From Syntrophales bacterium (lineage in GTDB: Bacteria; Desulfobacterota; Desulfobaccia; Desulfobaccales; 0-14-0-80-60-11), in contig JAQTXE010000002.1 of assembly GCA_028688935.1 (NCBI GenBank), positions 1-32,738 of the forward strand: a DNA stretch of 32,738 nt. Reading direction: 5' to 3'. How positions within the stretch are numbered: the stretch's first letter is position 1; each line of letters begins with the position of its first letter. The notes below the pieces were generated by a model. It saw nothing but the letters and a program-made list of their open reading frames with translations, made no database searches and was not told where the DNA came from. The position numbers were made by a program, and so were the translations under genes. Positions 15,661-31,089 of this stretch are shown piece after piece.

Positions 15661-16959
15661 ATGGAAAACGCCCCCAGCCCCTATCAACCCTCCTTCCGTC
15701 TTAAGCTCCTGGTCGTCGGCGTCCTCTATTTTGCCGAGGGGGTGCCCTATGGCTTTGTGGTTACCACCCTCTCTTTTTTCCTCCGGGGGCAAGGGGTGCC
15801 CCTGGAGCAAATCGGCATTTTAAGCCTCCTGGGCCTGGCCTGGAGTTTTAAAATCCTCTGGAGCCCTCTGGCCGACCGCTACGGCTCCCGGGCCGCCTGG
15901 CTGGTCCCCTCCCAGGTGATAATCGTCCTCTGCCTGGCGATCTTCTCTCTGCGCACCGGCCAGCCCATCGGCTGGGTCTTCTTTGTGCTGGTGGGGCTCA
16001 TGTGCCTGGCTTCGGCCACCCAGGACCTGGCGGTGGACGCTTATACCATCGACCTCCTGGAGCCCAAAGAGCTGGGTCTGGCCAACGGCGTCCGTAACGG
16101 CGCCTATCGGGTGGGAGCCCTGTCCGCGGGCTCCGGCTTGCTGATTATCAGCGACTGGGTGGGTTGGCAGCCTGCCTTTGTGGCCTTAGGCGTGGTGATG
16201 ACGGCCCTGGTCGTTACCGTTCTGGTCTTCCGGCCCTTTCACCTGCCCCGGCCGGGGGAGGCAGGACGTCATCCAGCCGGCGAAAAAGGCTTGGCCATGA
16301 TTAAGGAGGCCTTCAAAATACTGAAGCGCCACCCCTATTTCCCGGCCATCATCGTCTTTGCTCTCACTTTCAAGGCCGGAGACGCGCTCATGGCCTCCAT
16401 GGTTTCTCCCTTTTGGAAGGACCAGGGGTTCAGCGGCAGCGAATTCGGGGTGGTCTCCGGCATCCTGGGGGCCGGGGCCACCATCCTGGGGGGGGTTCTG
16501 GGGGGCTGGGCCACCAGCCGCTGGGGCATCGGCCGGGGGCTGTGGACCATGGGCCTCCTCCAGGCCGTCTCCAATCTGGGCTATTGGGCCGCGGCCCTGC
16601 CGGGCATGACCCGCTATGCGGTCTTTACCATTTCCCTGCCGTTTCTCTCCCATCCCGTGGCCGTCTATCCCATTTATCTGGCGTCCCAGGGGGAAAGTAT
16701 TTCGTCGGGCATGGGCTCCGCGGCCTTCATGGCCTATCTCATGGCCTTGTGCGACAAACGCTTCAGCGCTATGCACTATGCCTTTTTCGCCATGCTCTTC
16801 AGCTTCGGGGCCCGGATCTTCGGCTACCTGGGGGGCTGGGGCGCGGCCTATTTCGGCTACGCCAACTTCTTCTTCCTCAGCTTCCTGGCCGCACTCCCCG
16901 CGTTCGCCCTGCTGCCGTGGATCCTGCCGGTAATTAATCGGATTGAGGGGAGAGAATAA
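15661..16959 (+). CDS. MFS transporter, AmpG-like
   Basis: VLYFAEGVPYGFVVTTLSFFLRGQGV, LADRYGSRAAWLVPSQ, ATQDLAVDAYTIDLL; multiple hydrophobic helices. Confidence 0.85.
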   Translation: MENAPSPYQPSFRLKLLVVGVLYFAEGVPYGFVVTTLSFFLRGQGVPLEQIGILSLLGLAWSFKILWSPLADRYGSRAAWLVPSQVIIVLCLAIFSLRTGQPIGWVFFVLVGLMCLASATQDLAVDAYTIDLLEPKELGLANGVRNGAYRVGALSAGSGLLIISDWVGWQPAFVALGVVMTALVVTVLVFRPFHLPRPGEAGRHPAGEKGLAMIKEAFKILKRHPYFPAIIVFALTFKAGDALMASMVSPFWKDQGFSGSEFGVVSGILGAGATILGGVLGGWATSRWGIGRGLWTMGLLQAVSNLGYWAAALPGMTRYAVFTISLPFLSHPVAVYPIYLASQGESISSGMGSAAFMAYLMALCDKRFSAMHYAFFAMLFSFGARIFGYLGGWGAAYFGYANFFFLSFLAALPAFALLPWILPVINRIEGRE

Positions 16960-16962
16960 AGA

Positions 16963-16993
16963 CGGTTTTCGGTTCCCGGTTTCCGGTTTCCGG
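16963..16993. repeat. Heptad tandem array, unit CGGTTTC
   Basis: CGGTTTT CGGTTCC CGGTTTC CGGTTTC CGG, beginning 4 nt after the stop of the upstream CDS. Confidence 0.85.
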
Positions 16994-17114
16994 CACAAAC
17001 AAAGTCAGGGATCATGAAAAGCCAACGCCCACAGCAAAAAACTCATTTTAATAGTTCGCTGGCGATTGCCTCCTCTATCCTGGAAAACTCATCTTATTTC
17101 TTTGGGAACTAATT

Positions 17115-17660
17115 TTGACCAACCGAAAACCGAAAACTGAAAACCGAAAACTGCGTATTCTACTCACCGGCCCTCCCCGATGCGGCAAGACCACGGTGGT
17201 GCAAAAAGTGGCGGCCCGTTTTCCGGGCCGGGCCGCAGGGTTTTACACCCGGGAAGTGCGGGAGAGGGGCGAACGGGTGGGCTTTGAGATCGTCACCCTG
17301 GACGGCCTGGTAGCGTGGCTCAGCCATGTGGATTTTCCCGGACCGTTGCGGGTGGGCAAATATGGCGTGGACCTGGAAGATTTTCACCGGCTGGCCCTGC
17401 CGGCCATGGCTTATCAGCCGGGGATTGACCTGATCATCGTGGATGAGATCGGCAAGATGGAGTGTTTATCGTCCCGCTTCGAGGAGGCCATGGAGCGGCT
17501 TTGGACCGCGCCCGCGCCTTTGCTGGTGACTGTGGCCGAGAAAGGGGGCGGCTATATCCGCAAAGTTAAAGAGAAGCCGGATAAAACGCTGATCCGCATC
17601 ACTCCCGGCAACCGGGACGATCTGCCGGAGAGGATTTTGCAACTCCTTTTGAAATATTAA
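17115..17660 (+). CDS. THEP1-type nucleoside-triphosphatase (start uncertain; TTG at 17115 used)
   Basis: RILLTGPPRCGKTTVVQKVA Walker A, LIIVDEIGKMECLSSRF Walker B. Confidence 0.88.
   Translation: MTNRKPKTENRKLRILLTGPPRCGKTTVVQKVAARFPGRAAGFYTREVRERGERVGFEIVTLDGLVAWLSHVDFPGPLRVGKYGVDLEDFHRLALPAMAYQPGIDLIIVDEIGKMECLSSRFEEAMERLWTAPAPLLVTVAEKGGGYIRKVKEKPDKTLIRITPGNRDDLPERILQLLLKY
17121..17153. repeat. Heptad tandem array, unit AACCGAA
   Basis: AACCGAA AACCGAA AACTGAA AACCGAA AACTG; inverse complement type of the 16963-16993 array; overlaps the 5' end of the THEP1 ORF. Confidence 0.85.
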
Positions 17661-17686
17661 CTATAGAAGCTAATCATCTCTCGTAC

Positions 17687-17756
17687 CCGGGGTTCTGCCC
17701 TGAAAAGGTATGCCCCGGCGCAGGCTAAAGCCTGCGGCTACCTTTGACAACCCCGG
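17687..17756. repeat. Nested palindromic (REP-like) intergenic element
   Basis: CCGGGGTT (17687-17694)/AACCCCGG (17749-17756), AAAGGTA (17704-17710)/TACCTTT (17739-17745), CGCAGGCT-aa-AGCCTGCG (17719-17736). Confidence 0.8.
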
Positions 17757-17825
17757 AGAGGTCTTCCCACTCACTTTCCCCTGTCATCATTGCAATTTAG
17801 CCTCCCCAGGCATATAATTTCCTAA

Positions 17826-18719
17826 ATGGACAAGGAAACCTGGATCGAAGTGCGCCTCCTGGTGCCATTAAGCATGCAGGAAGAAGCCGCCTGCTTCCTC
17901 ACCGAATTCAGCGGCCGGGGGGTGATCTTGGAGGAAGAGGGTCCTTCTCAGGCCGGCGCCTTGATTCGGGCCTTTTTCCGGCCCGAGGACTTCGGGACCT
18001 GGCAACAGGAAGAACTTCAGGAATACCTGCGGCGTCTGGGGGGCCATGGTCTCTTCCCCCTGGGGCTGGAGATGCGCCAGGTGGCCGCGGAAGACTGGGC
18101 CGAGGCCTGGAAGTGCCATTTTAAGGCCCGGAAAGTCACCTCCTGTTTGGTAGTGCGCCCCCCCTGGGAGGAATACCAGGCCGCAGCGGGAGAACTGGTA
18201 ATCACCATTTATCCGGCCATGGCCTTCGGCACCGGCCGCCATCCCTCCACCCTTCTTTGCCTTAAGGCCCTGGAGGAGGTCTGGTCCCGGGACCTGCCCC
18301 TGGACCCCAAACCCTGGCAGGTCCTGGACGTGGGCACCGGCTCCGGCATCCTGGCCCTGGCTGCGGCCCGCCTGGGAGCCGGGGTCCTGGCCATCGACGT
18401 GGACCCGGAGGCGGTGGCCGCGGCCCTGGAAAACGTGCGCCTCAACGCCCTGGAAGACCAGGTCTGGGTGGAGGCTACGCCCTTGTCGGCTCTCAGGCAA
18501 CAGTTCGCCTTGATTCTGGCCAACCTCACGGGCCCGGACCTCCTGGAACTGGCGGAAGCCCTTACCGCCCGCCTGCTCACCGGCGGGGCCTTAATCATCT
18601 CCGGTTTCCTCGAAGAAGACCGGCCCCGGCTGGAGAGCCGCTTCCTCTCCCTGGGCTTGCAAGAAGCGGGATTCCTTACGGAGGAAGACTGGGGGGCCTT
18701 GATCCTGAGACGGCCTTGA
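17826..18719 (+). CDS. prmA: Ribosomal protein L11 methyltransferase
   Basis: PAMAFGTGRHPSTLLCLKALE, VLDVGTGSGILALAAARLGA, LILANLTGPDLLELA, SGFLEEDRPRLE. Confidence 0.93.
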   Translation: MDKETWIEVRLLVPLSMQEEAACFLTEFSGRGVILEEEGPSQAGALIRAFFRPEDFGTWQQEELQEYLRRLGGHGLFPLGLEMRQVAAEDWAEAWKCHFKARKVTSCLVVRPPWEEYQAAAGELVITIYPAMAFGTGRHPSTLLCLKALEEVWSRDLPLDPKPWQVLDVGTGSGILALAAARLGAGVLAIDVDPEAVAAALENVRLNALEDQVWVEATPLSALRQQFALILANLTGPDLLELAEALTARLLTGGALIISGFLEEDRPRLESRFLSLGLQEAGFLTEEDWGALILRRP

Positions 18720-18789
18720 AAAGAAGTGAGCAGTAAAAACAAGGTTTAGGTGACCATCATCTTTTTCCACGACACGTCCCCTTGAGAGA

Positions 18790-18803
18790 TTCAAGGTTCA
18801 AGG
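18790..18803. repeat. Short heptad repeat TTCAAGG x2
   Basis: TTCAAGG TTCAAGG; same unit as the 21009-21036 array. Confidence 0.55.
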
Positions 18804-18870
18804 TATGATTTGTGATTTATTAGTATTATTGATAAGTTAAACTATAGTCGCAGTCAAAAATTATTCAACC

Positions 18871-18930
18871 GTAGGGGCGAACCTTGTGTTCGCCCTAGAG
18901 CCACTGGGCGAACACAAGGTTCGCCCCTAC
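18871..18930. repeat. Perfect 25-bp inverted repeat with 10-nt loop, intergenic
   Basis: GTAGGGGCGAACCTTGTGTTCGCCC (18871-18895) - tagagccact - GGGCGAACACAAGGTTCGCCCCTAC (18906-18930). Confidence 0.92.
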
Positions 18931-18986
18931 AAAAAGTCCCTTTAATTAATAATTGGTATTAATGGTGAGCCGCGGTCTCCTGAAAA

Positions 18987-19007
18987 ACTGCTCACTGCTT
19001 ACCGCTT
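18987..19007. repeat. Heptad tandem array, unit ACTGCTT/C
   Basis: ACTGCTC ACTGCTT ACCGCTT; ACTGCTCACT is the inverse complement of AGTGAGCAGT at 18725-18734. Confidence 0.75.
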
Positions 19008-19028
19008 ACATTAACAGGAGGGTTAACC

Positions 19029-19325
19029 ATGCAGGATTTTCTAAAAAAAGCCTGGCTCTTCGGCGTGGGGATCTTCGATTTTACCAAGGAAAAAGCAGAG
19101 GCCCTGGTGTCCGAGATGGTCAAAAGGGGGGAGGTCAGCCAGCAGGAGAGCCCCCAGGCCGTGGAGCAGATTCTGGATAAAGCCCAGGAGATGCAGAAAG
19201 CCCTGTTCGAGAAAGTCAAAGAGATCATCGGCGGCATGAACCTGGCCCGGAACACGGACCTGGAAGCCCTGGAAAAGCGGGTGGCGGCCCTGGAGGAAGA
19301 GATTAAGGGCAAAGCCGGTTCCTAG
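19029..19325 (+). CDS. Phasin-family-like coiled-coil protein
   Basis: FLKKAWLFGVGIFDFTKEKAEALVSEMVKRGEVS followed by a heptad-rich helical C-terminus (LEALEKRVAALEEEIK); AGGAGGG ribosome-binding site upstream. Confidence 0.75.
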   Translation: MQDFLKKAWLFGVGIFDFTKEKAEALVSEMVKRGEVSQQESPQAVEQILDKAQEMQKALFEKVKEIIGGMNLARNTDLEALEKRVAALEEEIKGKAGS

Positions 19326-19356
19326 GGGGACTTTGGCGCCCCCCCCGCCCGTGACC

Positions 19357-20109
19357 ATGAAACCATCTCCTCCTGCATTCCAGCGCCGTTTTTTTGCGCC
19401 CCCGGCGGCTTTTCAAAAAGGTAAGGTCGTATTAGGCCCGGAAGAGACGCACCATTTGCACAAGGTTTTGCGACTGGGGCCGGGGGCTAAGGTCGAGGTC
19501 TATGACGGCCAGGGCCGCAATTTTGCCGCAGTAGTGCATAAAATAGAGGCCGGAGGCGCGCTCTTGCAAGTCCTGGAGGAACTGGCTCCCTGGGGCGAAT
19601 CGCCCCTGGACCTCACCCTGGGGATCGGCCTGGCCAAGGGGGAGGCCCTGGACGCAGTGGTGCGCCAGGCCACGGAGATGGGAGTCAAGCTGATTATCCC
19701 TTTTACCTCGGAGCGTTCGGAGCAGGTCACCCCGGAACGCGCGGCCCGGCGCCTTTTGCGTTGGCAGCGCCTGACCCAGGAAAGTCTCAAGTCCTGCCGC
19801 CGCTCTTTAGTTCCCAGGATCGAGGAGCCCGTGGACTTTACCACGGCCCTCTCAGGGCCGGAGACGCTGAAGTTGCTTTTTTGGGAAGAGGAACTGGGAG
19901 GCGGACTCAAAGCCTTTCTCAGCCAACCCCGTCCTCAATCGGTGCGGGTGCTCATCGGCCCGGAAGGGGGCTTCTCCCCTAAGGAAGCGGCCCAGGCCCA
20001 AGACGCGGGCTTTGCCGTGGTAAGCCTGGGGCCCCGCCTGCTCAAAGTGCCCACCGCCGCCCTGGCCGCTTTGACCCTCATCCAGTACGCCTGGGGGGAC
20101 CTGGCCTGA
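19357..20109 (+). CDS. rsmE: 16S rRNA (uracil1498-N3)-methyltransferase, RsmE family (alternative TTG start at 19333)
   Basis: RRFFAPPAAFQKGKVVLGPEETHHLHKVLRLGPGAKVEVYDGQG, IGPEGGFSPKEA, SLGPRLLKVPTAALAALTLIQ. Confidence 0.93.
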   Translation: MKPSPPAFQRRFFAPPAAFQKGKVVLGPEETHHLHKVLRLGPGAKVEVYDGQGRNFAAVVHKIEAGGALLQVLEELAPWGESPLDLTLGIGLAKGEALDAVVRQATEMGVKLIIPFTSERSEQVTPERAARRLLRWQRLTQESLKSCRRSLVPRIEEPVDFTTALSGPETLKLLFWEEELGGGLKAFLSQPRPQSVRVLIGPEGGFSPKEAAQAQDAGFAVVSLGPRLLKVPTAALAALTLIQYAWGDLA

Positions 20110-21044
20110 TGCCGGACCTGCCTTACCGGGACTTGAATAGGTATTTACGCCAGCGTTTTGGCGAGCGGGTGCAAAAAATCACCCTGGACGCGGGGCTGAC
20201 TTGTCCCAACCGGGATGGCCGGGTAGGGCAGGGGGGGTGTCTTTACTGCAACGCCCGGGGCTCGGGCACCGGCGCCTGGAGCCGGGGGCTAAACCTCAGC
20301 CAACAGCTGGAGGAAGGCCGGGACCGCCTGGGGCGGCGTTACGGAGCCCGGAAATTTATTGCCTATTTTCAAAGTTTCAGCAATACTTATGCGCCCCTGG
20401 AGCAATTGCAGGCCCTCTACCGGGAGGCCCTGGCCTGCCCGGGGGTGGTGGGCTTAAGCATCGGTACCCGGCCGGACTGCTTAAGCGATGCCGTCCTGGA
20501 TCTGCTGGCGGACTTGCAACGGGATTACCTGGTCTGGTTGGAGCTGGGCCTCCAGTCCGCGCATGACGCCACCTTGAAGCGCCTCAACCGGGGGCATAAC
20601 GTTGCTTGTTTCACGGACGCAGTAAATCGGGCCGCAGGCCGGGGGCTGGAGACCGTGGCCCACGTGATCCTGGGCCTGCCGGGGGAAGGTGCCGGCGAGA
20701 TGGCGGCCACCGCGGCTTACCTGGGGGGACTGCCCTTGCAAGGGGTGAAGCTGCATCTGTTGTATGTCACCCCTGATTCGGCCCTGGCTTCTCTTTACCG
20801 GAGCGGGGATTACAGGTGTCTCACGGAAACGGCGTACGTAACCGCGGTGGTGGACTTCCTGGAGCTGCTGCCGCCGCAGATGGTCATTCACCGCCTCACC
20901 GGCGACCCCCATGCGGGGGAGATGCTGGCTCCGGAATGGTGCCTGGATAAAGCCCGGGTCCTTAATCTGATTAAACAGGAGTTTGCCCGCCGGGGCAGCC
21001 GCCAGGGATTCAAGGTTCAAGGTTCAAAGTTCGAAGTTATCTAA
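20109..21044 (+). CDS. Radical SAM protein, YhcC/TIGR01212-like
   Basis: KITLDAGLTCPNRDGRVGQGGCLYCNARGSG, KFIAYFQSFSNTYAPLEQL, ELGLQSAHDATLKRLNRGH, VIHRLTGDPH. Confidence 0.92.
   Translation: MPDLPYRDLNRYLRQRFGERVQKITLDAGLTCPNRDGRVGQGGCLYCNARGSGTGAWSRGLNLSQQLEEGRDRLGRRYGARKFIAYFQSFSNTYAPLEQLQALYREALACPGVVGLSIGTRPDCLSDAVLDLLADLQRDYLVWLELGLQSAHDATLKRLNRGHNVACFTDAVNRAAGRGLETVAHVILGLPGEGAGEMAATAAYLGGLPLQGVKLHLLYVTPDSALASLYRSGDYRCLTETAYVTAVVDFLELLPPQMVIHRLTGDPHAGEMLAPEWCLDKARVLNLIKQEFARRGSRQGFKVQGSKFEVI
21009..21036. repeat. Heptad tandem array, unit TTCAAGG
   Basis: TTCAAGG TTCAAGG TTCAAAG TTCGAAG; encodes part of the C-terminal tail of the radical SAM ORF. Confidence 0.85.
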
Positions 21045-21071
21045 AGTGCGGCCAAGGCGCCAAAAGATGAT

Positions 21072-21091
21072 GACGGGCGGGGACGCCCGTC
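21072..21091. repeat. Short perfect hairpin
   Basis: GACGGGCG-ggga-CGCCCGTC. Confidence 0.7.
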
Positions 21092-21191
21092 CGACGGTCT
21101 TCCTAAGTTTTATTGCGAGGGCATGAAAGCGATTTCAGTCGCGCCTGAGCCTATGGCCCACCCATTGATGATAAAATCTTTTTGCGTCTTA

Positions 21192-21215
21192 CTTTGCGCC
21201 TCTGCGTCTTTGCGT
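21192..21215. repeat. Period-8 tandem array
   Basis: CTTTGCGC CTCTGCGT CTTTGCGT. Confidence 0.75.
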
Positions 21216-21247
21216 GAGGCCAATCTTTTTAAAGACAGAAAGTTTAA

Positions 21248-22057
21248 ATGAACCAGGGAAAAATGGGAAATCAAGCTGATCTTTCCGAGGCCCGGGCCGA
21301 AAGGAAAATCTTGCCGCAGACCGAAGCTGCTCAGGATGCTAAATCCAGCCGCCTTTTTCTCTGGGGCGGCCTGGCCCTGGTGCTGTTAGTGTCGGGTCTG
21401 ATTTGGGCCTTCAATGGCCGGGATTCCCTCTGGGGCGGCTTCTGTTATTACTACGGCATCATCACGGATAAGGAACATATTCAATCCCTCCTGAAAACAG
21501 CCGGACCTCTGGCCCCCCTGATCTTCATCGTGGTGCAGGCGTTACAGGTGGTGTTCGCCCCCATCCCCGGGGAGGCCACCGGTTTCATCGGCGGTTTTCT
21601 CTTCGGGGTGCCCCTGGGGATGCTCTATTCCACCATCGGCCTGACCCTGGGCTCGATCCTGGCTTTCTTGTTGGGCCGCTGGCTGGAAGTCCACTTCGTG
21701 GCCCGGGTGGTCTCCCCCGAGACCCTGAAACGTTTTGATTTTCTCATGGAGCGCCAGGGCGCGTTGGTGGCCTTTTTCCTTTTTGTCTTTCCCGGGTTCC
21801 CCAAGGATTACCTCTGCTTCATCCTGGGCTTAAGCCAGATGCCCTTCAAGGTCTTCCTGGTCCTGTGCACGGTGGGCCGCCTCCCCGGCACCCTGATGCT
21901 GACTTTGCAGGGGGCCAAGGTCTATGAAGGGGATTATCTCTTCTCCGGCATCCTCATCGCCCTCTGTCTGCTGCTGGGAGGTTTTTTGTATTACTATCGG
22001 GAAACCTTGTACCTCTGGCTGCAGCGCTGGGAACACGGCGGGGGAGAGGAGAAGTAG
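21248..22057 (+). CDS. VTT-domain (TVP38/DedA-like) membrane protein
   Basis: APLIFIVVQALQVVFAPIPGEATGFIGGFLFGVPLGMLYSTIGLTLGSILAFLLGRWL, FVFPGFPKDYLCFILGLSQM. Confidence 0.88.
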   Translation: MNQGKMGNQADLSEARAERKILPQTEAAQDAKSSRLFLWGGLALVLLVSGLIWAFNGRDSLWGGFCYYYGIITDKEHIQSLLKTAGPLAPLIFIVVQALQVVFAPIPGEATGFIGGFLFGVPLGMLYSTIGLTLGSILAFLLGRWLEVHFVARVVSPETLKRFDFLMERQGALVAFFLFVFPGFPKDYLCFILGLSQMPFKVFLVLCTVGRLPGTLMLTLQGAKVYEGDYLFSGILIALCLLLGGFLYYYRETLYLWLQRWEHGGGEEK

Positions 22058-22102
22058 TGGCCAGTGGTCAGTGGCCAGTGGTCAGTAGCCAGTAGCCAGT
22101 AG
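22056..22102. repeat. Heptad tandem array, unit CCAGTGG/TCAGTAG
   Basis: AGTGG CCAGTGG TCAGTGG CCAGTGG TCAGTAG CCAGTAG CCAGTAG; overlaps the stop codon of the VTT CDS. Confidence 0.9.
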
Positions 22103-22230
22103 ATTGATGGCGCACTCCTTATTTTAGATTCATATCATATTCATATTACGTCATTTATCCCCTCTACCCTCGGGGGAGAGGGATAGTGGTGAGGGAGGAA
22201 AAAGACTTTTTGCGGGCTCATCCTTTTAAA

Positions 22231-22265
22231 ACTGATCACTGATCATTGATCACTGACTACTGACT
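22231..22265. repeat. Heptad tandem array, unit ACTGATC
   Basis: ACTGATC ACTGATC ATTGATC ACTGACT ACTGACT; complementary-inverted family to 22056-22102. Confidence 0.88.
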
Positions 22266-22388
22266 GCCATGCCTCCGCCTCTCCTTGACAAGCCCCGGGA
22301 AAAGTAATAGTTTCAAGCAGTCATTCATTGGTTTTTGCCCTAATCGCAAATTTTGCCAAGTTCCTGGTCGGGGTTCCTGACATACAAC

Positions 22389-22409
22389 TTTGAACCTGGA
22401 ACCTGGAAC
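22389..22409. repeat. Heptad tandem array, unit CTGGAAC
   Basis: TTTGAAC CTGGAAC CTGGAAC, 17 nt before ATG 22427. Confidence 0.75.
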
Positions 22410-22426
22410 TTTTTACTGGAGGAAAG

Positions 22427-23479
22427 ATGTCCCCTTTACCCCCCCTGGCGGCCACCGGCATCGGTTCCGTGCCCTTCACCGACCCGGCCGCGGCCGCGGC
22501 GGCGATCCTGGAGCATCTGCCCGAGGTGCCCTTCTGGCCCCAGATGGTGCGCCTGGGATTTCCCGAAGAGATGGTGGCCCAGGCAGCCCGCGGCCTGCCG
22601 GGGTTAAAGGTGGACCTGGAGGCCCGCACGGTCACCACGGACCCGGACCTTCCCCGGGAAGAGGCCCTGGCCCGGCTTTATGAGGAAGTGTGGTCCGGGG
22701 CTCTGGCCCCCTTTGCTTTGGACCCCGGGGAGGCCCAGGGCTTTTTTGCGCTCTTGCGGGCTTGCGCCTCGGCCCAAAACGGGGTTCAGGCCCTGAAAGG
22801 CCAACTCTCCGGGCCGGTGACTTTTGCCGGCATGGTCAAGGATCAAGAAGGCAAACCCATTCTTTTTGACCAGGAGTTGACCCAGGCGGTGTGCCAGGGA
22901 CTGGCCCGGAAGGCCGTCTGGCAGGCGCAGCAGTTCTGGGATTTGGGTAAAGAGGCGGTGATTTTTTTCGACGAGCCTTATCTCACCGGGTTTGGCTCCG
23001 CCTATCTGCCCATCTCCAAGGGTGAGGTGATGGAGATCCTCACCCAGACCCTGGAGGCGGTGCGTCAAGGCGGTCCGGTCGCCCTGGGGGTGCACTGCTG
23101 TGGCAATACCGAGTGGTCCTTGCTGCTGGAGACGCCTGTGGATATCCTCAGCTTTGATTCCTTCGGCTATTTTGACAGCCTCCGCCTCTATGACCAGGCG
23201 CTCAAAGGATTTTTGTCCCGGGGCGGCCGGCTGGCCTGGGGCCTGGTGCCCACCGGGGAGGAACTGGCTGGGGAAACCGCGGACAGCCTGTGGGAGCGTT
23301 TCCAGGGCCAGGTGCAGCAGTTGGCCTCTTCGGGGACGGCGATCAAGGAAATACTCGCCGGCGCCCTCCTGACGCCGGCCTGCGGCATGGGCTACCTGAG
23401 CCCGGAGGCGGCCGACCGGGTTTTGGCTTTGCTCCAGGATTTGAGCGCCCGCGGCCGTAAGTGGCTGGCGACTTTATAG
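22427..23479 (+). CDS. MetE/uroporphyrinogen-decarboxylase-fold methyltransferase-like protein
   Basis: ATGIGSVPFTDPAAAAAAILEHLPEVPFWPQM, LSGPVTFAGMVKD, GVHCCGNTEWSLLLETPVDILSFDSFGY, ILAGALLTPACGMGYLSPEAA. Confidence 0.82.
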   Translation: MSPLPPLAATGIGSVPFTDPAAAAAAILEHLPEVPFWPQMVRLGFPEEMVAQAARGLPGLKVDLEARTVTTDPDLPREEALARLYEEVWSGALAPFALDPGEAQGFFALLRACASAQNGVQALKGQLSGPVTFAGMVKDQEGKPILFDQELTQAVCQGLARKAVWQAQQFWDLGKEAVIFFDEPYLTGFGSAYLPISKGEVMEILTQTLEAVRQGGPVALGVHCCGNTEWSLLLETPVDILSFDSFGYFDSLRLYDQALKGFLSRGGRLAWGLVPTGEELAGETADSLWERFQGQVQQLASSGTAIKEILAGALLTPACGMGYLSPEAADRVLALLQDLSARGRKWLATL

Positions 23480-23489
23480 TTAGCAGTTG

Positions 23490-23510
23490 CTGCTCACTGC
23501 TCACTGCTCA
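23490..23510. repeat. Heptad tandem array, unit CTGCTCA x3
   Basis: CTGCTCA CTGCTCA CTGCTCA, between a stop codon (23479) and the RBS of the next gene. Confidence 0.88.
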
Positions 23511-23529
23511 CTTCAAGGGGAGACACTCC

Positions 23530-23937
23530 ATGAAAGTCCGGGACATCATGGTCAAAGAGGTGGCCACCCTGGATGTCAATGATGAACTCAGCCTGGCCAA
23601 CGATATCATGCGCCTGGGGCGCATCCGGCACCTGCCGGTGGTGGAGGGCGAGCGACTGGCGGGAATTGTCTCGGAAAGGGACCTGTTCCGCAGTTCCCTG
23701 GCCCAGGCTCTGGGTTATGCCTCCGAGGCCACCCGGGATTTAATGAAAACCCTGCGCATCAAGGATGTCATGGTGCCGGCGGTGGTCACTGTTTCCCCGG
23801 AAACGCCGTTGTGTGACGCGGTGAGCCTGATGGTGGAAAAAAAGATCGGCTGCCTGCCGGTGGTGGAGAATGACAGTCTGGTGGGCCTGATCACGGAAAC
23901 GGATATCATGATCCAGTATCTGAAGGATTGCAGTTAG
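23530..23937 (+). CDS. Tandem CBS-domain protein
   Basis: MKVRDIMVKEVATLDVNDELSLANDIMRLGRIRHLPVVEGERLAGIVSERDL and a second CBS repeat; ATG 23530 preceded by AAGGGGAG. Confidence 0.9.
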   Translation: MKVRDIMVKEVATLDVNDELSLANDIMRLGRIRHLPVVEGERLAGIVSERDLFRSSLAQALGYASEATRDLMKTLRIKDVMVPAVVTVSPETPLCDAVSLMVEKKIGCLPVVENDSLVGLITETDIMIQYLKDCS

Positions 23938-23942
23938 CGCCT

Positions 23943-24989
23943 TCAGCAAAAGGCCAGGAAGCGGATAAAATTCTTGAGAGTGCGGCGCTCAAAGATTGCT
24001 CCCTGGGGACCTTCCTGTTTCTGGAGCAACTTTAAAGCAGCAAAAGGAGTCATCGCCAGCCGGTGGGGGCGATTGGTGGTGAGGGCGTCATAGGCGTCCA
24101 TCAACCGGAGAATCCGGGTCCAGGGGTGCTGCTGTTGCAAAAGTAAGCCTTTAGGGTAGCCCGAGCCGTCGGCGTTTTCATGATGTTCCAAAACCAACTG
24201 AATCCCTTCCGCCGGCAAGGTAGAGTAACGTTTCAATATGTGCTTCCCGATTAAGGGATGTCTTTTGGTCTCTTCCCATTCCTCCGGGGTCAGCCTCTCT
24301 GATTTATAAAGAATATCTTCGGAGATGCGGGTCATCCCCAGGTCGAACACCAGGGCCGCGGAGCCTAAGAGGCGGCTCTCCCGCTGGGGTTTCTTCAAAA
24401 AAAGCATTAATCCTACTGCCAGCAGACAAACGTTCACCGCGTGGTTGTAAAGGCTGTAATTGCGGAAAAGAATCTCCCAGAGCATCTTGGGGTAAAATTT
24501 GTCATGTTGAAATTCCTTGATAATCATATCGACCTGCTTTAAAGCCGGATCGATATGGGCCCCCAGCCGGGGAGCGGTAATGGCCTGGCGCAAGGTCAGG
24601 CTGAGGTGCTCCATCAAGACGTTGAACTTCCTTTTAGTTTGGGCCGTTTCCTGCTCCAGCAATTGCAGATGGTTGTTCAGATAAGCCAGGACGTTATCCA
24701 GGTCGGAGCAATGGAAGTAAAGACACATGATCCCTATTTTGAACAGGGGTTCCAGCCACTTGGAGTCCAGCACTTCCCCGGCATCCACATAAGGGAAAAA
24801 CTTAAACCCTGACCACTGGTTATCGCCGGCCTTAAGATAGAGGGAGAAGGTCAGGCGTTCTCCCAGCATGAGCCCCCGGAGATTCAAAGGGATATAATTG
24901 GAAATTCCGGATTTGGAGAGCGCCGGATTGCATTGGACACCCTTCAGGCCTTGGGAGAAGAGGTGTTCTCTATTCCTGGGCGCGCGCAT
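23943..24989 (-). CDS. HD-GYP-like domain protein with altered HD motif (FD)
   Basis: SAALVFDLGMTRISEDILYKSERLTPEEWEETKRHPLIGKHIL ... VLEHHENADGSGYPKGLLLQQQHPWTRILRLMDAYDALTTNRPHR. Confidence 0.85.
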   Translation of the reverse strand: MRAPRNREHLFSQGLKGVQCNPALSKSGISNYIPLNLRGLMLGERLTFSLYLKAGDNQWSGFKFFPYVDAGEVLDSKWLEPLFKIGIMCLYFHCSDLDNVLAYLNNHLQLLEQETAQTKRKFNVLMEHLSLTLRQAITAPRLGAHIDPALKQVDMIIKEFQHDKFYPKMLWEILFRNYSLYNHAVNVCLLAVGLMLFLKKPQRESRLLGSAALVFDLGMTRISEDILYKSERLTPEEWEETKRHPLIGKHILKRYSTLPAEGIQLVLEHHENADGSGYPKGLLLQQQHPWTRILRLMDAYDALTTNRPHRLAMTPFAALKLLQKQEGPQGAIFERRTLKNFIRFLAFC

Positions 24990-25093
24990 GAACTGACACC
25001 CTTTCTAATGAAATAGTTCTCCGATATGTTTATCGGCATGCTTTTACGAAAACTTAAAATTTCTTTGGCTCTTTTCTCTCCTGTCCCATTTTA

Positions 25094-25182
25094 ATACCAA
25101 ACTGCAATCAACAGGCAGCAAACCGGGCGGATGCAAGATTCGCCCGCTACAAATAAAAGGTCCTGTGATTGCGACTTGGTAT
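25094..25182. mobile_element. Small MITE-like element with imperfect terminal inverted repeats
   Basis: ATACCAAACTGCAATCAACAGG (25094-25115) vs CCTGTGATTGCGACTTGGTAT (25162-25182); inner hairpin CGGGCG/CGCCCG (25124-25129/25141-25146). Confidence 0.6.
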
Positions 25183-25248
25183 AAGGGGCGCCGGAGATAC
25201 GGGCTGGGCGTACATATGGTAACCGCGGAAGGTTAGATTTTGGGAGAG

Positions 25249-26292
25249 TTAAGGGATAGCCAAAAACCGGATGAAGTTATTCATGGTACGGAGGTCGAAG
25301 TTTTGTACGGGCATACCTGCCTGTTTCTGGAGGGACTTCAACGCCGCAAAGGGCGCTATGGACTTCTTCCCTGGACGATGACCGGTGAGAGAATCAAATT
25401 CGTCCACCAGACGGACGATCCGGGTCCAGGGATGTTGTTTGCTCAAGGGAAGTCCCTGGGGATAACCTGAACCGTCGGCGTTTTCGTGGTGCTCTTGCAC
25501 CAGTTGCAGGACCTCCGAGGGCAGGACATCGCATTCCTTCAGCATCTGATAACCGACAAGAGGATGCTTCTTCATGGTCTCCCAATCGTCCTCCTCCAGG
25601 GGTTCAGATTGATAAAGCAAATCCTCCGGCACCCGGGTCAAGCCGATGTCGTGAAAGAGGCAGGCCACTCCTAAGATAAGGCTTTCCTGTCGGGAATTAT
25701 GCATAAATAGCATCAAGGCTATCCCCAGGAGACAGACGTTCAGGGAGTGGTTATAAAGGCTGTAGTTCCGATAGAGTAATTCCCAAACCAACTTGAGGGA
25801 TTGAATGTCTCTCTGGAGCATTTGCACCAGGCGTTCCACCTGGTTTTTGGCCAGATTGATATGGCTGCCCATTTGGGGGGAATTGAAGGCCCGGTAGAGG
25901 CTGAAATTCAAATGCTCCACTATGACCAGAAACTTTTCTTTGGGTGGGTTCCCCCGTTGGAGGTCGAACAACAACAGATGGTTGTTCAGATAGGCCAATG
26001 CCAGTTCCAGGTCCCGGCGGCGAAAATAGAAACGGTCGATCCCTAATCTTTCCAGGATCTCCACCCAGGAGGTCTCCAGAACCTCTTCCGCCTCCAGGAA
26101 AGGTAAGAAAGTGATTCCTTCTTGTTCGTTGGTGCTTACTTTCAGGTAAAGGTTAAATGAGATTTTCTCACCCACCATCAGGGCTTGGAGATATATGGGC
26201 AAAAAAGAGGCGGTATCAGTGGCGCTGAAATTACGCTTCAGGACTTTCAGTTGGTTGGCGAACAATTGTTTTCGGGTGGTCTGCACATCCAT
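25249..26292 (-). CDS. HD-GYP-like domain protein
   Basis: VACLFHDIGLTRVPEDLLYQSEPLEEDDWETMKKHPLVGYQML ... VQEHHENADGSGYPQGLPLSKQHPWTRIVRLVDEFDSLTGHRPGK. Confidence 0.9.
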   Translation of the reverse strand: MDVQTTRKQLFANQLKVLKRNFSATDTASFLPIYLQALMVGEKISFNLYLKVSTNEQEGITFLPFLEAEEVLETSWVEILERLGIDRFYFRRRDLELALAYLNNHLLLFDLQRGNPPKEKFLVIVEHLNFSLYRAFNSPQMGSHINLAKNQVERLVQMLQRDIQSLKLVWELLYRNYSLYNHSLNVCLLGIALMLFMHNSRQESLILGVACLFHDIGLTRVPEDLLYQSEPLEEDDWETMKKHPLVGYQMLKECDVLPSEVLQLVQEHHENADGSGYPQGLPLSKQHPWTRIVRLVDEFDSLTGHRPGKKSIAPFAALKSLQKQAGMPVQNFDLRTMNNFIRFLAIP

Positions 26293-26534
26293 GCCAAAAC
26301 CGTCCTTATCCTGTTGCCTGTCCTTATGGACCCCCTTCTGTTGTTATCGGCACCTGACGTCAGACAGTTAAACCCGACGATGATTTTCCCGGCCTCAGCC
26401 CCAGCAGTATGGAATGGAGAGAAGTCTTGACGAACTTTCAAGCTGCTGCACAGCGGGAGCCAGTACCCGGCTCCCAGCATGCCTCCCCAAGGTCTGGTAG
26501 TGGCTTGCTGCTGGAAAGAAAAGCAAATCGAGGT

Positions 26535-27452
26535 TCAGATGTAGGTCAGCCAGCTTTGATAACGGGTGTCTTCCCCTTTCACCACCGCGAAAAACGCAGC
26601 CTGGAGTTTCTCAGTGATGGGGCCGGGTTTGCCGGAGCCGATGGCGCGTCCGTCCACTTCCCTTAAGGGGGTGACTTCTGCGGCCGTGCCGGTGAGGAAG
26701 GCTTCGTCGGCCAGGTAGAGCTCATCCCGGGAGAAGAGATCTTCTCTCACCGGAATTCCCAGGTCCCGGGCCAGGGTCAGGAGGGAGTCCCGGGTAATTC
26801 CCGGCAGAACCGCGGTCAGGGGCGGGGTTTTGAGGAGACCGTCCCGCACCACAAAGATATTCTCCCCCGAGGCCTCGGCCACGTAACCGTCCGTGTCCAG
26901 CAGGATGGCTTCATCATAGCCCAGGAGGGTAGCCTCTCGCTTGGCCATGATGGAATTGACATAGTTCCCCGTGGTTTTGGCCTTGGTCATCATCACGTTC
27001 ACGTGATGCCGGGCAAAGGAGGAAATCTTGCCGCGGATACCTTTTTTCAGCCCTTCATCCCCCAGGTAAGCTCCCCAGACCCAGCTAATGATGGCCAGAT
27101 GGATGGGATTATTTTGGGGGTGCAGACCCATGACCCCCTCTCCCACGAAGCCCAAAGGCCGGATATAGGCCTCTTTCTGCTGATTGACCCGCAGGATCTC
27201 GCAGCAGGCCGCCTTCACCTCGGCCTGGGAAACGGGCAGATCCAGTTGCATGACATGGGCGGAATCAAAAAGACGCCGGATGTGTTCTCCCAGGCGGAAG
27301 ATCGCCGTGCGGCCGTCAACGCCAAGGTAGGCCCTGATGCCTTCGAAGACCCCCAAGCCATAATGCAGGGAGTGGGTTAATAGATGGACCTGGGCTTCCT
27401 CCCAGGGGATGAATTTACCGTCCAACCAGATACTCTTCGCCTTCTCGACCAT
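26535..27452 (-). CDS. ilvE: Branched-chain amino acid aminotransferase
   Basis: [77 protein letters not shown]. Confidence 0.95.
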
Positions 27453-27630
27453 CTGCCGCCCCTCAAAGAGATTAAAACCGACTTTTAACCCATCGACCCC
27501 GGGATGTCAAACGAATTTGCACCCCGGTTTTCATTGTTTAAGGCCGGATATTCCGGTAATATGGGGTTGGTTTTAGCCAATGACATCTCGACTGTTTCAC
27601 ATTCCAAAAATTCTGGGCATTTAGTTGTAA

Positions 27631-28599
27631 ATGAAGACAATTAATAAATTTTTGCCGCCCCTGGTCATCCTCTTGGGGCTGGTGGCCTGGTTGCTGAGCG
27701 GCTCCGGGCACCTGCTCTCTGCCGGGAGCCAAACGCCTCACCACCTGGTGGTTCTGGGCGACCCCCACATCCCGGGAAAATTCCTGCCAGAGAAAGAGGC
27801 GGTGATCCGGACTATTAATTCCTGGCCCGATGTGAAGCTGGTAGTGGCGGTGGGCGATATCTGCGAGGATTTGGGGACGGAACCAGAATATGCCGCGGCC
27901 AAACAATTCTTTGGCAGACTTGCCAAACCATGGGTGCTGATTCCGGGAAATCACGACTTTATCTATGAAGATGTGAAGATGCCGGACGGCAAGAGGATAA
28001 AGGGGGCGCCATCCGCCAGACAGAAAAAATTGGCAAGATTTCAGAAAAGTTTCGGTATCCCTGCAATATATCAAAGTAAACTGGTGGATAATTATCTACT
28101 AATTTTTCTGGCTACCGATGATCGGCAATCAGACCAATTAGCCCGTATTTCCCCGAAACAATTGGCTTGGCTGCGCTCGGTACTCAAAAGCCACCGGAAA
28201 AATCCCACCATCATCTTTTTCCATGCTCCTTTGTACGGGACCTTATCCAGTTTTAGTAGTTATATTAATACCAAAGATTTTATTGCCCAACCCCAAGATG
28301 AGTTGCATGAGATTCTTCAGAACAATCCCCAGGTTTTTCTCTGGGTCAGTGGCCATACGCATGTTCCGGCAACCAATAAAGACTTCCGCTCCGCCCTTAA
28401 TTATTATGAAAACCGCGTGTACACCCTACACAATGCTGATATGAACCGCAAAACTATGTGGACTAATTCTCTTTTCCTTTTCCCTGATAAAGTAGTAATC
28501 AAGACTTACGACCATCGGCTGGGAGCCTGGTCACCCGGACTGGAGAAAACCTTGATACCGCCGCGGCTCTTGATTAGAGGCCGCCAGCTTCATCAATAA
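27631..28599 (+). CDS. Calcineurin-like metallophosphoesterase with N-terminal signal/TM segment
   Basis: HLVVLGDPHIPG, VVAVGDICED, VLIPGNHDFIYED, LWVSGHTHVPA. Confidence 0.85.
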   Translation: MKTINKFLPPLVILLGLVAWLLSGSGHLLSAGSQTPHHLVVLGDPHIPGKFLPEKEAVIRTINSWPDVKLVVAVGDICEDLGTEPEYAAAKQFFGRLAKPWVLIPGNHDFIYEDVKMPDGKRIKGAPSARQKKLARFQKSFGIPAIYQSKLVDNYLLIFLATDDRQSDQLARISPKQLAWLRSVLKSHRKNPTIIFFHAPLYGTLSSFSSYINTKDFIAQPQDELHEILQNNPQVFLWVSGHTHVPATNKDFRSALNYYENRVYTLHNADMNRKTMWTNSLFLFPDKVVIKTYDHRLGAWSPGLEKTLIPPRLLIRGRQLHQ

Positions 28600-28618
28600 A
28601 TCAGGAAGAATAGTGATC

Positions 28619-29563
28619 ATGAGTCAACCTCTCAAAGTCGGAGTCATCGGCGTGGGCTACCTGGGCCGCTTCCACGCGGAGAAATACGCGGCTCTGCCGG
28701 ACGTGGACCTGGTGGGAGTGGCCGATCTGAATCCGGATCAGGCTGCCCAGGTGGCCGGAGCTCTAAATACCCGGGGTTTTCCCGATTACTTGCAGTTGCT
28801 GCCCCTGGTGGAGGCGGTAAGCGTGGCCGTATCCACCACGGCCCATTTTCCCGTGGTCCGGGACTGCCTGGAGCGGGGCTTACAGGTGCTGGTGGAAAAA
28901 CCCCTGGCCGTCACCGCCGCGGAAGCCGATACCCTGGTGGACTTGGCCCGGGATAAGGGCCGCCTCTTGATGGTGGGTCATTTGGAACGCTTCAATTCGG
29001 CCATGGAAGAACTCAGGGCCAAGGTGACCCGCCCCGCCTTCATTGAAAGCCACCGCCTCTCCTTTTATAAGGAACGGGGCATTGATGTGGACGTGGTCCT
29101 GGACCTGATGATCCATGACCTGGACCACGTTCTCAGCCTGGTTCCCTCTCCGGTGCAGGAAATCCGGGCCGCCGGGGTCTCCGTGCTGACCGATAAGGTC
29201 GATCTGGCCAACGTCCGCCTGGAATTCGCCGACGGCTGCATCGCCAATCTCACCGCCAGCCGCATGTCCTTTAAAAGCATGCGTAAATTCCGCCTTTTTC
29301 AACCCGACGCCTATCTCTCCGTGGACTTTGAAGCCCGGGAGCTGACCATGGCCTCCCGCCAGGAAGGGGCCCTGGGCCCGCTGCCCGGGGTGGCCCTGGA
29401 GACCAAGCGTTTCCCCCAGGAAGACGTGTTGTTCAAAGAAATCTCCAACTTTGTCGCCGCCATCCAAGGCCGGGAAGAACCCCGGGTGACCGGGGAGGAC
29501 GGCCGGGCCGCCCTCTCTTTGGCCCTGGACATCATTGGCGCCATGCGCAAGGCCAAGGTGTAA
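28619..29563 (+). CDS. Gfo/Idh/MocA-family oxidoreductase (GTG start at 28613 also possible)
   Basis: LKVGVIGVGYLGRFHAEKYAALPDVDLVGVADLNPDQA, VLVEKPLAVTAAEADTLVDLA, VLDLMIHDLDHVLSLV. Confidence 0.9.
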   Translation: MSQPLKVGVIGVGYLGRFHAEKYAALPDVDLVGVADLNPDQAAQVAGALNTRGFPDYLQLLPLVEAVSVAVSTTAHFPVVRDCLERGLQVLVEKPLAVTAAEADTLVDLARDKGRLLMVGHLERFNSAMEELRAKVTRPAFIESHRLSFYKERGIDVDVVLDLMIHDLDHVLSLVPSPVQEIRAAGVSVLTDKVDLANVRLEFADGCIANLTASRMSFKSMRKFRLFQPDAYLSVDFEARELTMASRQEGALGPLPGVALETKRFPQEDVLFKEISNFVAAIQGREEPRVTGEDGRAALSLALDIIGAMRKAKV

Positions 29564-29620
29564 ACGCAAGTCTAACCGGAGCCGGCCGCTAAAGAAGATC
29601 GCTCCCTCCAGAGCAAAAAA

Positions 29621-31069
29621 ATGATAAGAATCACCATTATTTTTGCAGCAGCCTACTGGTTCATCGAGTCGGCCATAGATGCCCTTCTTTTTAACCGGGG
29701 TACTCTGCTGGAGATGATCTTTACCGCGGATCCCTACGAATATTTTGTCCGCCTTACCGGCGCGGGATTTATTGTCACCATCGGCATGTTAGCCCAATAC
29801 ATGCTTAAGCGTATCCAGGGGAGTGAAGAGCAGTTACGACGCTTCCGGCATCAGAATGAACTGATTTTAGAGAGTGCGGGCGAAGGGATCTTAGGTATCG
29901 ATCAGGAAGGGAAAATAACCTTCATCAATCCCGCGGCCGCGGCCATGAGCGGGTTTACCCCGGCGGAACTGGCCGGGCAAAGCTTTCATGACTTGCTTCA
30001 TTATTCCTACCCTGACGGCTCTCCCCTCCCCCTGGAGGATTGTCCGGTTTTCAATTCCCTCAGAGAAGGGAAAATTCAGCGCCAGTCCCATGATGTCTTC
30101 TGGACCAAAGAAGGGAAAAGTATTTGGGTGGAGTATAGCATCACCCCCATTATCGAGAACCGGAAGATAACCGGCGCAGTGGTGGTCTTTACGGACATCT
30201 CCGCCCGCAAACAGGCGGAGGAGGAATTGCTGCGCCACCGGGAGCACCTGGAAAATTTGGTGGCGGCGCGCACCGGAGAGCTGACCAGGACCAATGAGCA
30301 GATGCGGGAAGAGATTGAAGAACGCACCAGGGCGGAGAAGGCCCTGGTGGAATCGGAGAAAAAACTCCGGTTCTTGACGAAGCAGCTCATGAATGTCCAG
30401 GAAAGGGAGAGGAGCCGGATCTCCGCCGAATTGCACGACGAATTGGGACAGGCGTTAATGGTCTTAAAGATGGATGTCTCTTCGCTGCAGGACAAGCTAC
30501 GGAAAGAGCAGGACCCTCTCAGGAAAGAATGTTCCCGTCTGCTGTCTGAGATCGACCATATCATTGAAAATGTCCGGCGGCTCTGTTGGGATTTGGGTCC
30601 TTATCTCATGGAAGGGCTGGGCCTGACGGCATCTTTGCAGAGTCTGATTGAAGAGACGTGCAAGAAGCATAATCTGATCTGTACCATGAAACTGGATGAG
30701 ATCGATCAGATCTTCCCTCCCGAGATCAAAACCAATATCTACCGGATCCTCCAGGAGTCTTTAACCAATATCGTCAAACATGCTACCGCCTCCCAGGTTT
30801 CCGGGACCATTAGCATAGAACGAGAAAATTTAATTATGGAAGTGGTGGATGACGGCCAGGGTTTCCAGGTGGAAGAACTGTTAGCCCGCCCCGGCCCGGA
30901 CGGGGGATTGGGGCTCACCGCCATGCAGGAGCGGGCCCGGCAAATCGGCGGCGAATTATCAATTTCCAGTCAAGCCGGGCAGGGAACCGTGATTAAGCTG
31001 ACCCTGCCATTGCCCTCGGGTCCCGGCCCAGGAGAATCACTGTCTAAGTCTGTTAATCCCCAACCTTGA
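29621..31069 (+). CDS. Membrane PAS-domain sensor histidine kinase (HisKA_3/NarX-type)
   Basis: N-terminal TM helices, PAS (ILESAGEGILGIDQEGKITFINPAAAAMSGF), RSRISAELHDELGQALMVLKMD, HATPase VVDDGQGF, GGLGLTAMQERARQIGG. Confidence 0.92.
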   Translation: MIRITIIFAAAYWFIESAIDALLFNRGTLLEMIFTADPYEYFVRLTGAGFIVTIGMLAQYMLKRIQGSEEQLRRFRHQNELILESAGEGILGIDQEGKITFINPAAAAMSGFTPAELAGQSFHDLLHYSYPDGSPLPLEDCPVFNSLREGKIQRQSHDVFWTKEGKSIWVEYSITPIIENRKITGAVVVFTDISARKQAEEELLRHREHLENLVAARTGELTRTNEQMREEIEERTRAEKALVESEKKLRFLTKQLMNVQERERSRISAELHDELGQALMVLKMDVSSLQDKLRKEQDPLRKECSRLLSEIDHIIENVRRLCWDLGPYLMEGLGLTASLQSLIEETCKKHNLICTMKLDEIDQIFPPEIKTNIYRILQESLTNIVKHATASQVSGTISIERENLIMEVVDDGQGFQVEELLARPGPDGGLGLTAMQERARQIGGELSISSQAGQGTVIKLTLPLPSGPGPGESLSKSVNPQP

Positions 31070-31089
31070 ACCTGGAACCTTGAACTTTT
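31062..31089. repeat. Heptad tandem array, unit AACCTTG/AACCTGG
   Basis: AACCTTG AACCTGG AACCTTG AACTTTT; overlaps the kinase stop codon (31067-31069) and abuts the lpxB start. Confidence 0.8.

Follow-up and report, generated by a model that had tools for sequence, protein, structure and literature searches.

Most heptad repeats at gene ends in a Syntrophales genome are facing arms of hairpin-like intergenic spacers

The stretch of DNA analysed here, referred to as the window, comprises 32,738 nucleotides from a Syntrophales bacterium (assembly GCA_028688935.1, contig JAQTXE010000002.1) and is contig 91 of a 384-contig, 3.94-Mb assembly. Short tandem arrays of 7-nt units, i.e., heptads, lie at the junctions between many of its genes, among them those for an MFS transporter, a THEP1-like NTPase, PrmA, a phasin-like protein, a radical-SAM protein, a VTT-domain protein, a CBS-domain-like protein, a PAS-histidine kinase and LpxB. 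We find that most gene-end heptads in this genome are the two facing arms of hairpin-like intergenic spacers, with one array following the gene on the left, an inverted partner preceding the gene on the right, and a core between them. An initial annotation of the window had listed the arrays but missed this main feature, that they are oriented and paired as inverted arms bounding a spacer.

Period and unit families of the arrays

Arrays were detected with Tandem Repeats Finder (TRF) and an ungapped period scan, using a cut-off score of at least 12 in the window and at least 14 in the host genome and its relatives. Genome-wide counts refer to a sample of 81 stretches of the host genome, 805 kb for the period scan. 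Coding sequences (CDS) were called by a simple home-made hexamer script, and the gene borders in all distance and polarity figures depend on these calls. Below, G000-G028 etc. are the genomes compared, L followed by three digits is an individual DNA stretch, and "own" is the host genome.

All the arrays in the initial annotation exist, essentially where it had placed them, with 18790-18804 amounting to merely two copies (Table 1). The excess of period 7 withstood shuffling: the window contains 6 such arrays, compared with a mean of 0.0 in 20 trinucleotide-model shuffles, and no other period exceeds 1 array, the harmonic 14 excepted. The host sample contains 55 arrays of period 7, 7 of period 8, 3 of period 6 and 16 of period 14, a harmonic of 7; in 278 kb from relatives the corresponding numbers are 43, 6, 0 and 26. 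After shuffling, the first 655 kb yielded 1 array per period, caused by one contig reading as N. The order-level pattern scans cover 29 genomes, and four ACTG spaced at period 7 are present in 24 of them (at most 311 matches per genome). At period 8 or 6 the same pattern matches none of the 29, and period 7 is therefore specific. The arrays are mainly intergenic, as 6 of 94 fall within called CDS. One exception to the intergenic rule is at L061:5489-5520, where a called CDS contains a perfect CCGTTTTCCGTTTTC array.

The units had been described as unrelated in sequence, which is wrong. Four families account for 87 of the 94 arrays (AAAACNG 35, ACTGNNN 26, GCTGNNN 17 and GAACYTK 9), while random heptads would fit 13% of the time, and three of the seven arrays outside the families resemble mutated family members. 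The units seem unrelated because strand and rotation are not considered, and several of those listed are reverse complements. CGGTTTC and AACCGAA are inverse members of a single family, TTCAAGG, AACCTTG and CTGGAAC make up one further family, and CCAGTGG, ACTGATC and CTGCTCA are all ACTGNNN. The proposal of a heptad-generating process, rather than one dispersed repeat family, thus stands in part: there are several families with a fixed period, but they are only a handful and are dispersed genome-wide.

Oriented arms around a core

Left-type arms (GTTTTC, CAGTNNN, TTTCAGC and GGTTCAA) come directly after the CDS on the left, at a median of 8 nt, and right-type arms, their complements, directly precede the CDS on the right, at a median of 10 nt. 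The predicted side is occupied by 77 of the 83 placeable arrays (p 8e-17), a test that is partly circular, as the motifs that define orientation were chosen once examples had been read; the cross-phylum loci below are a less circular one. The distances peak near 3 nt on the stop side and near 17 nt on the start side. The suggested enrichment at CDS ends is borne out, since the outer edge of an array lies a median of 9 nt from the facing CDS, whereas arrays placed at random within the same gaps give 61 nt (0 of 5000 permutations).

Gaps with more than one arm are left-right in 20 cases, left-right-right in 1 and right-right in 1, and left-left or right-left in 0. The core between the arms measures 7-435 nt (median 77), and the stretches made up of both arms and the core have a strong tendency to fold (median z -5.2, n=43). 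The left-core-right unit fills all but 1-45 nt of four convergent gaps, and in two divergent gaps 84-228 nt are left outside it, which fits the expectation if promoters are spared. Both arms belong to the same family in 32 of 45 pairs, where 12.8 are expected by permutation (maximum 23). Within a family, the arms of a pair also resemble each other more in 6-mer make-up (0.498) than arms from different loci do (0.396, p 0.006).

Table 1. Arms, cores and remnants of heptad spacers in the window
Feature	Position	Strand	Context	Detection
Left arm, GTTTTC/AAAACNG family	16963-16993	+	3 nt past stop of MFS transporter gene (15661-16959)	TRF and period scan
Core (loop) of first hairpin spacer	16994-17120	.	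Between paired arms	
Right arm, AAAACCG/AAAACTG	17121-17151	+	Abuts start region of THEP1-like NTPase gene; inverted with 16963-16993, 29 nt, 83% complementary	TRF and period scan
Degenerate left arm AAGAAGTGAGCAGT	18721-18734	+	Just past PrmA stop (18719); 93% complementary to 18987-19000	
Two-copy TTCAAGG remnant	18790-18804	+	Within PrmA-phasin spacer	TRF, score 30
Perfect REP-like inverted repeat GTAGGGGCGAACC	18871-18930	.	Nested in core; 25-nt arms, 100% complementary	
Right arm, ACTGCTC family	18987-19009	+	20 nt upstream of phasin-like start (19029)	Period scan, score 10, a little weaker
Left-type arm, TTCAAGG family	21009-21038	+	Extends through 3' end of radical-SAM gene (stop 21042-21044)	TRF and period scan
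Left arm, CAGTGGC/CAGTAGC	22056-22102	+	Begins in stop codon of VTT-domain gene (22055-22057)	TRF and period scan
Core of VTT-metE-like hairpin spacer	22103-22230	.	Length and sequence vary in relatives	
Right arm, ACTGATC/ACTGACT	22231-22265	+	Inverted with 22062-22093, 32 nt, 75% complementary	TRF and period scan
Right-type arm, GAACCTG	22392-22409	+	17 nt upstream of gene 22427-23479	TRF and period scan
Left-arm remnant AGTTAGCAGT	23478-23487	+	At stop codon 23477-23479; 90% complementary to 23496-23505	
Right arm, ACTGCTC	23490-23512	+	17 nt upstream of CBS-domain-like gene (23530)	TRF and period scan
Right-type arm, AACCTTG/AACCTGG	31062-31085	+	Overlaps PAS-histidine kinase stop (31067-31069); 6 nt before called LpxB start (31092)	TRF and period scan

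Just beyond the right arm of the VTT-metE-like spacer starts a promoter-like block (about 22275-22320), which is conserved in four species (the host, G001, G002 and G004). The THEP1-like NTPase gene, identified by eye and with its open reading frame ending at 17660, has no ATG beside the conserved N-terminus (17100-17200), and the right arm occupies the expected start position. For this reason, its translation may begin at the TTG at 17115, inside repeat-derived sequence.

Turnover at orthologous junctions and related repeats elsewhere

Six further species of the genus, mostly at 70-95% protein identity and represented by one genome each, were used to compare orthologous junctions. Between these species the copy number of the arrays differs by whole heptads. 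The same family is retained at the L032 junction 12/13 in own, G001, G003, G004 and G005, and the VTT-side left arm is kept in G001, G002 and G004. Families are swapped at the MFS-THEP1 junction, with GTTTTC/GAAAAC in the host and CAGT/ACTG in G001 and G002, and at the L032 junction 7/8, where own and G006 have AGCT while G002, G003 and G004 have CAGTGAG. Arrays are also gained or lost. The metE-CBS junction of G002 is 9 nt long and has no array, as opposed to G004, where a bounded insert measures about 150 nt. Similarly, the L037 junction 9/10 in G002 consists of about 36 nt without an array; the unit variant at this junction is species-specific and largely common to both arms within each species, e.g., CTGTTTTC/GAAAACAG in own and CGTTTTGC/GCAAAACG in G005. 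The array at the end of the radical-SAM gene has no counterpart at the orthologous junction in G001 and G002. The C-terminus of this protein (21000-21044) is encoded by the heptad array, and relatives carry a different continuation.

Within the genus, a composite of AGCT arms and an ACAGAG core is found at roughly seven different junctions, and its homology stops at the outer arm edges. The core is a 120-bp CACAGAG...CTCTGTG palindrome, which is also found without heptad arms and then itself abuts the CDS. The AGCT-unit counts to the left and right of the core are correlated (rho 0.81), partly reflecting armed versus unarmed copies. The palindrome (CACAGAGGCACAGAG ... CTCTGTGTCTCTGTGG; L032:11491-11686 and L138-L157) is dispersed at gene junctions in the genus and is itself composed of 8-9-nt quasi-repeats.

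In other genera of the order, the ACTG matches listed are minus-then-plus pairs, tens to hundreds of bases apart (for instance G022:C224, G023:C51 and G021:C265), and the related near-complete genomes G010, G025 and G026 contain no ACTG-type arrays. The four-unit ACTG pattern is present in 46 of 198 genomes drawn evenly from the phylum of the host. Five genomes from other lineages of the phylum (G018, G081, G116, G204 and G168) are rich in the reversed GTCANNN x4 instead of ACTGNNN, which suggests lineage-specific heptad families. Among the matches listed, (ACTGNNN)x5 occurs in named genomes of Cyanobacteria, Planctomycetes, Acidobacteria, Chloroflexi, Bacteroidetes, Gammaproteobacteria, Omnitrophota, Deltaproteobacteria, Clostridia, Sulfurovum and others, i.e., in at least about ten phyla. 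In the same listed matches, the predicted orientation towards the nearer CDS is shown by 61 of 84 intergenic ACTGNNN arrays (p 4e-5). An inverted partner is present on their inner side 27 times and on their outer side 3 times (p 8e-6).

Heterocystous cyanobacteria reportedly carry short tandemly repeated repetitive (STRR) heptamers, said to go back to Mazel et al. in 1990, which have period 7, several units per genome and intergenic positions. The host arrays are alike in all three respects, and the comparison made in the initial annotation, of a fixed period 7 with several unit families at gene ends, holds. To our knowledge, inverted pairing and polarity have not been described for STRRs. The Xanthomonas study discussed below (PMC4692102) also mentions these repeats.

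The same annotation knew of no described equivalent in this lineage. Equivalents are, however, published, and one of them, from Geobacter metallireducens, is probably from the same phylum (Aklujkar et al. 2009, PMC2700814). These sites consist of 3-5 tandem hepta- or octanucleotide units in opposite-strand pairs, at variable distance and between genes, and form several families of 8-24 pairs each (PMC2700814). They resemble the host arrays as several paired families between genes, but period 8 is common among them and they were interpreted as global-regulator binding sites.

The closest match is GGGAATC of Xanthomonas (Rehm et al. 2015, PMC4692102), which is intergenic, mostly with 4 units, and forms 70-75 inverted pairs per genome. 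One strand is found after stops, the other before starts within 50 bp, and stop codons are overlapped (PMC4692102); inverted pairs and a fixed strand at gene ends are found in the host as well. However, this is a G-rich single unit attributed to G-quadruplexes, at loci reported as stable (PMC4692102), whereas the host has four families and its orthologous junctions turn over. None of these families has a run of three or more G, and quadruplexes are therefore excluded as a general cause in the host.

TAACTGA repeats from marine Beggiatoaceae, Cyanobacteria and Bacteroidetes (MacGregor 2015, PMC4679880) have an ACTGNNN unit (ACTGATA). Most sets are directed at a start codon and stop a few nt before it, in the orientation of the right-type arms of the host, while 12 of 170 point to a stop and one inverted repeat was reported (PMC4679880). 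In contrast to the host arrays, this is a single unit for which no pairing rule was proposed. The doublets of repetitive extragenic palindromes (REPs) known as REPINs are, like the host spacers, two inverted copies with a variable spacer that form a hairpin between genes (Bertels and Rainey 2011, PMC3116915). However, their arms are single conserved 16-mers linked to genes for REP-associated tyrosine transposases (RAYTs; PMC3116915), while the host arms are tandem arrays and not RAYT flanks.

The host arrays join the published paired or polarised heptamers of Xanthomonas, Geobacter and Beggiatoaceae, to which several families per genome, one geometry and rapid turnover are added here. It can be speculated, although we find it doubtful, that a widespread intergenic element exists in at least about ten phyla, consisting of hairpins with tandem-heptad arms, a common unit grammar (ACTGNNN above all) and a constant gene polarity. 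If true, this one element would unite STRRs, TAACTGA, the Xanthomonas GGGAATC pairs and the host arrays as local forms, made by a common heptad-producing mechanism.

Origin of the spacers

We suggest that the spacers are quasi-palindromes between genes, in which slippage in 7-nt steps extends the arms and copying templated by the hairpin keeps them similar, a tentative reading to which we give a probability of roughly 0.48. The spacers would sit between functional borders, i.e., a stop codon, a ribosome-binding site or a promoter. Slipped-strand replication could lengthen or shorten the arrays in 7-nt steps. The replicating strand could also fold on itself, so that one arm serves as template for the other (template switching at quasi-palindromes), and for this reason the arms of a pair would stay in one family. 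Template switching that homogenises the arms of inverted repeats is a published type of mutation (PMC8604942, PMC8794818). New hairpins would also arise as copies of those at other junctions, at times taking along a core such as the ACAGAG palindrome. They would stop at CDS borders because no more than the dispensable portion of a junction can accommodate them. A dedicated regulatory role is not needed for the pattern. Points in favour of this origin are the single period, the few shared families, the left-core-right geometry with its fixed polarity, the strong folding, the agreement of paired arms in family, 6-mer make-up and species-specific unit variants, the linked AGCT-unit counts around the ACAGAG core, the dispersal of that composite, and the family swaps and empty junctions among relatives.

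Several observations speak against this origin. Only one arm is above the threshold in 38 of 60 array gaps, and 13 of the 45 pairs have arms of mixed families. Paired arms are no more complementary in register than arms taken from different loci (p 0.28), and the 45 pairs as a whole show no correlation of arm length (rho -0.08). Further, the presence of the same families at unrelated junctions demands an extra copying step beyond slippage and template switching.

For this spread between junctions a transposon-like route is the main rival. The heptad arms would then be the terminal inverted repeats of mobile miniature elements, similar to foldback elements or miniature inverted-repeat transposable elements (MITEs), recognised by a transposase or recombinase and inserting between stops and ribosome-binding sites. 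The arms are indeed inverted with a fixed polarity, the presence or absence at orthologous junctions is as expected (e.g., the 9 nt of G002 against the bounded insert of G004), and the AGCT-ACAGAG composite shares with MITEs and foldback elements its terminal inverted repeats and dispersed copies ending at these repeats. However, no target-site duplication was seen by eye at the compared junctions, where the relatives are too distant for a clean test, and no enzyme was found, the candidates examined being Y1 transposases that are not associated with heptads. As the cores are mostly unrelated, many arrays are one-armed, and arms at shared loci vary by whole heptads, which transposition alone does not give, we regard mobile elements as a rather unlikely origin of the spacers.

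Still less probable is that the arrays are functional RNA or DNA sites, with (ACTGNNN)n upstream of starts and the complementary arrays downstream of stops serving as regulator-binding sites or mRNA hairpins, as proposed for TAACTGA (PMC4679880) and Geobacter (PMC2700814). The nearness to ribosome-binding sites and stops and the strong folding agree with this, and a depletion between divergent genes is suggestive but not significant (odds ratio 0.40, p 0.064). Regulation is conceivable, but orthologous junctions that swap family or have no array and near-complete relatives without the ACTG type are hard to reconcile with it, and the neighbouring genes are unrelated in function.

Slippage could also act at each locus separately, giving independent simple-sequence repeats with 7 nt favoured by the polymerase, a preference attributed to Mrazek and colleagues in two other papers (PMC4679880, PMC4692102). 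The dominance of period 7 and the 7-nt variation in copy number between relatives would follow. We nevertheless judge this very improbable, as neither the use of few families genome-wide nor the fixed polarity and inverted same-family pairing is expected from separate local events.

REPIN-like elements spread by RAYT (Y1) transposases are hardly credible, for although Y1_Tnp genes are found in every array-rich genome and six genomes with 0-1 ACTG arrays lack them, most of those examined in G000, G002 and G004 have REP families of their own on their flanks, a heptad array of any kind lies within 330 nt of only about 3 of 20, and several array-poor genomes have many of them (G016: 7; G011: 5). 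There are several Y1/RAYT-like paralogues per genome in these three (L298-L317), with REP families such as GTAGGGTGGGCG, GGCACAGGCTTTCCAGCCTGTGCC and TTCCCAAGC.

Three further candidates were rejected. Absence of the hairpin nuclease SbcD as a permissive cause does not discriminate, because the family cut-off is reached by 0 of the 29 genomes of the order, array-free ones included, with weak metallophosphatase-type matches only. Integron attC sites, considered because of their position and inverted 7-nt core sites, differ by eye in core motif and polarity, and gene order is conserved across genera. Finally, the genes are not cassettes, because synteny stays conserved while the arrays come and go.

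Heptamer repeats have so far been reported piecemeal and each time explained differently, by quadruplexes, regulator sites or slippage. One geometry, several unrelated-looking families and junction swaps among relatives argue against single-sequence explanations and toward a mutational or mobile process. The question why the unit is 7 nt, and not 6 or 8, thereby becomes testable. The findings also hint at how compact genomes gain, lose and replace spacer DNA, and at why some genes draw their stop codon from a repeat.

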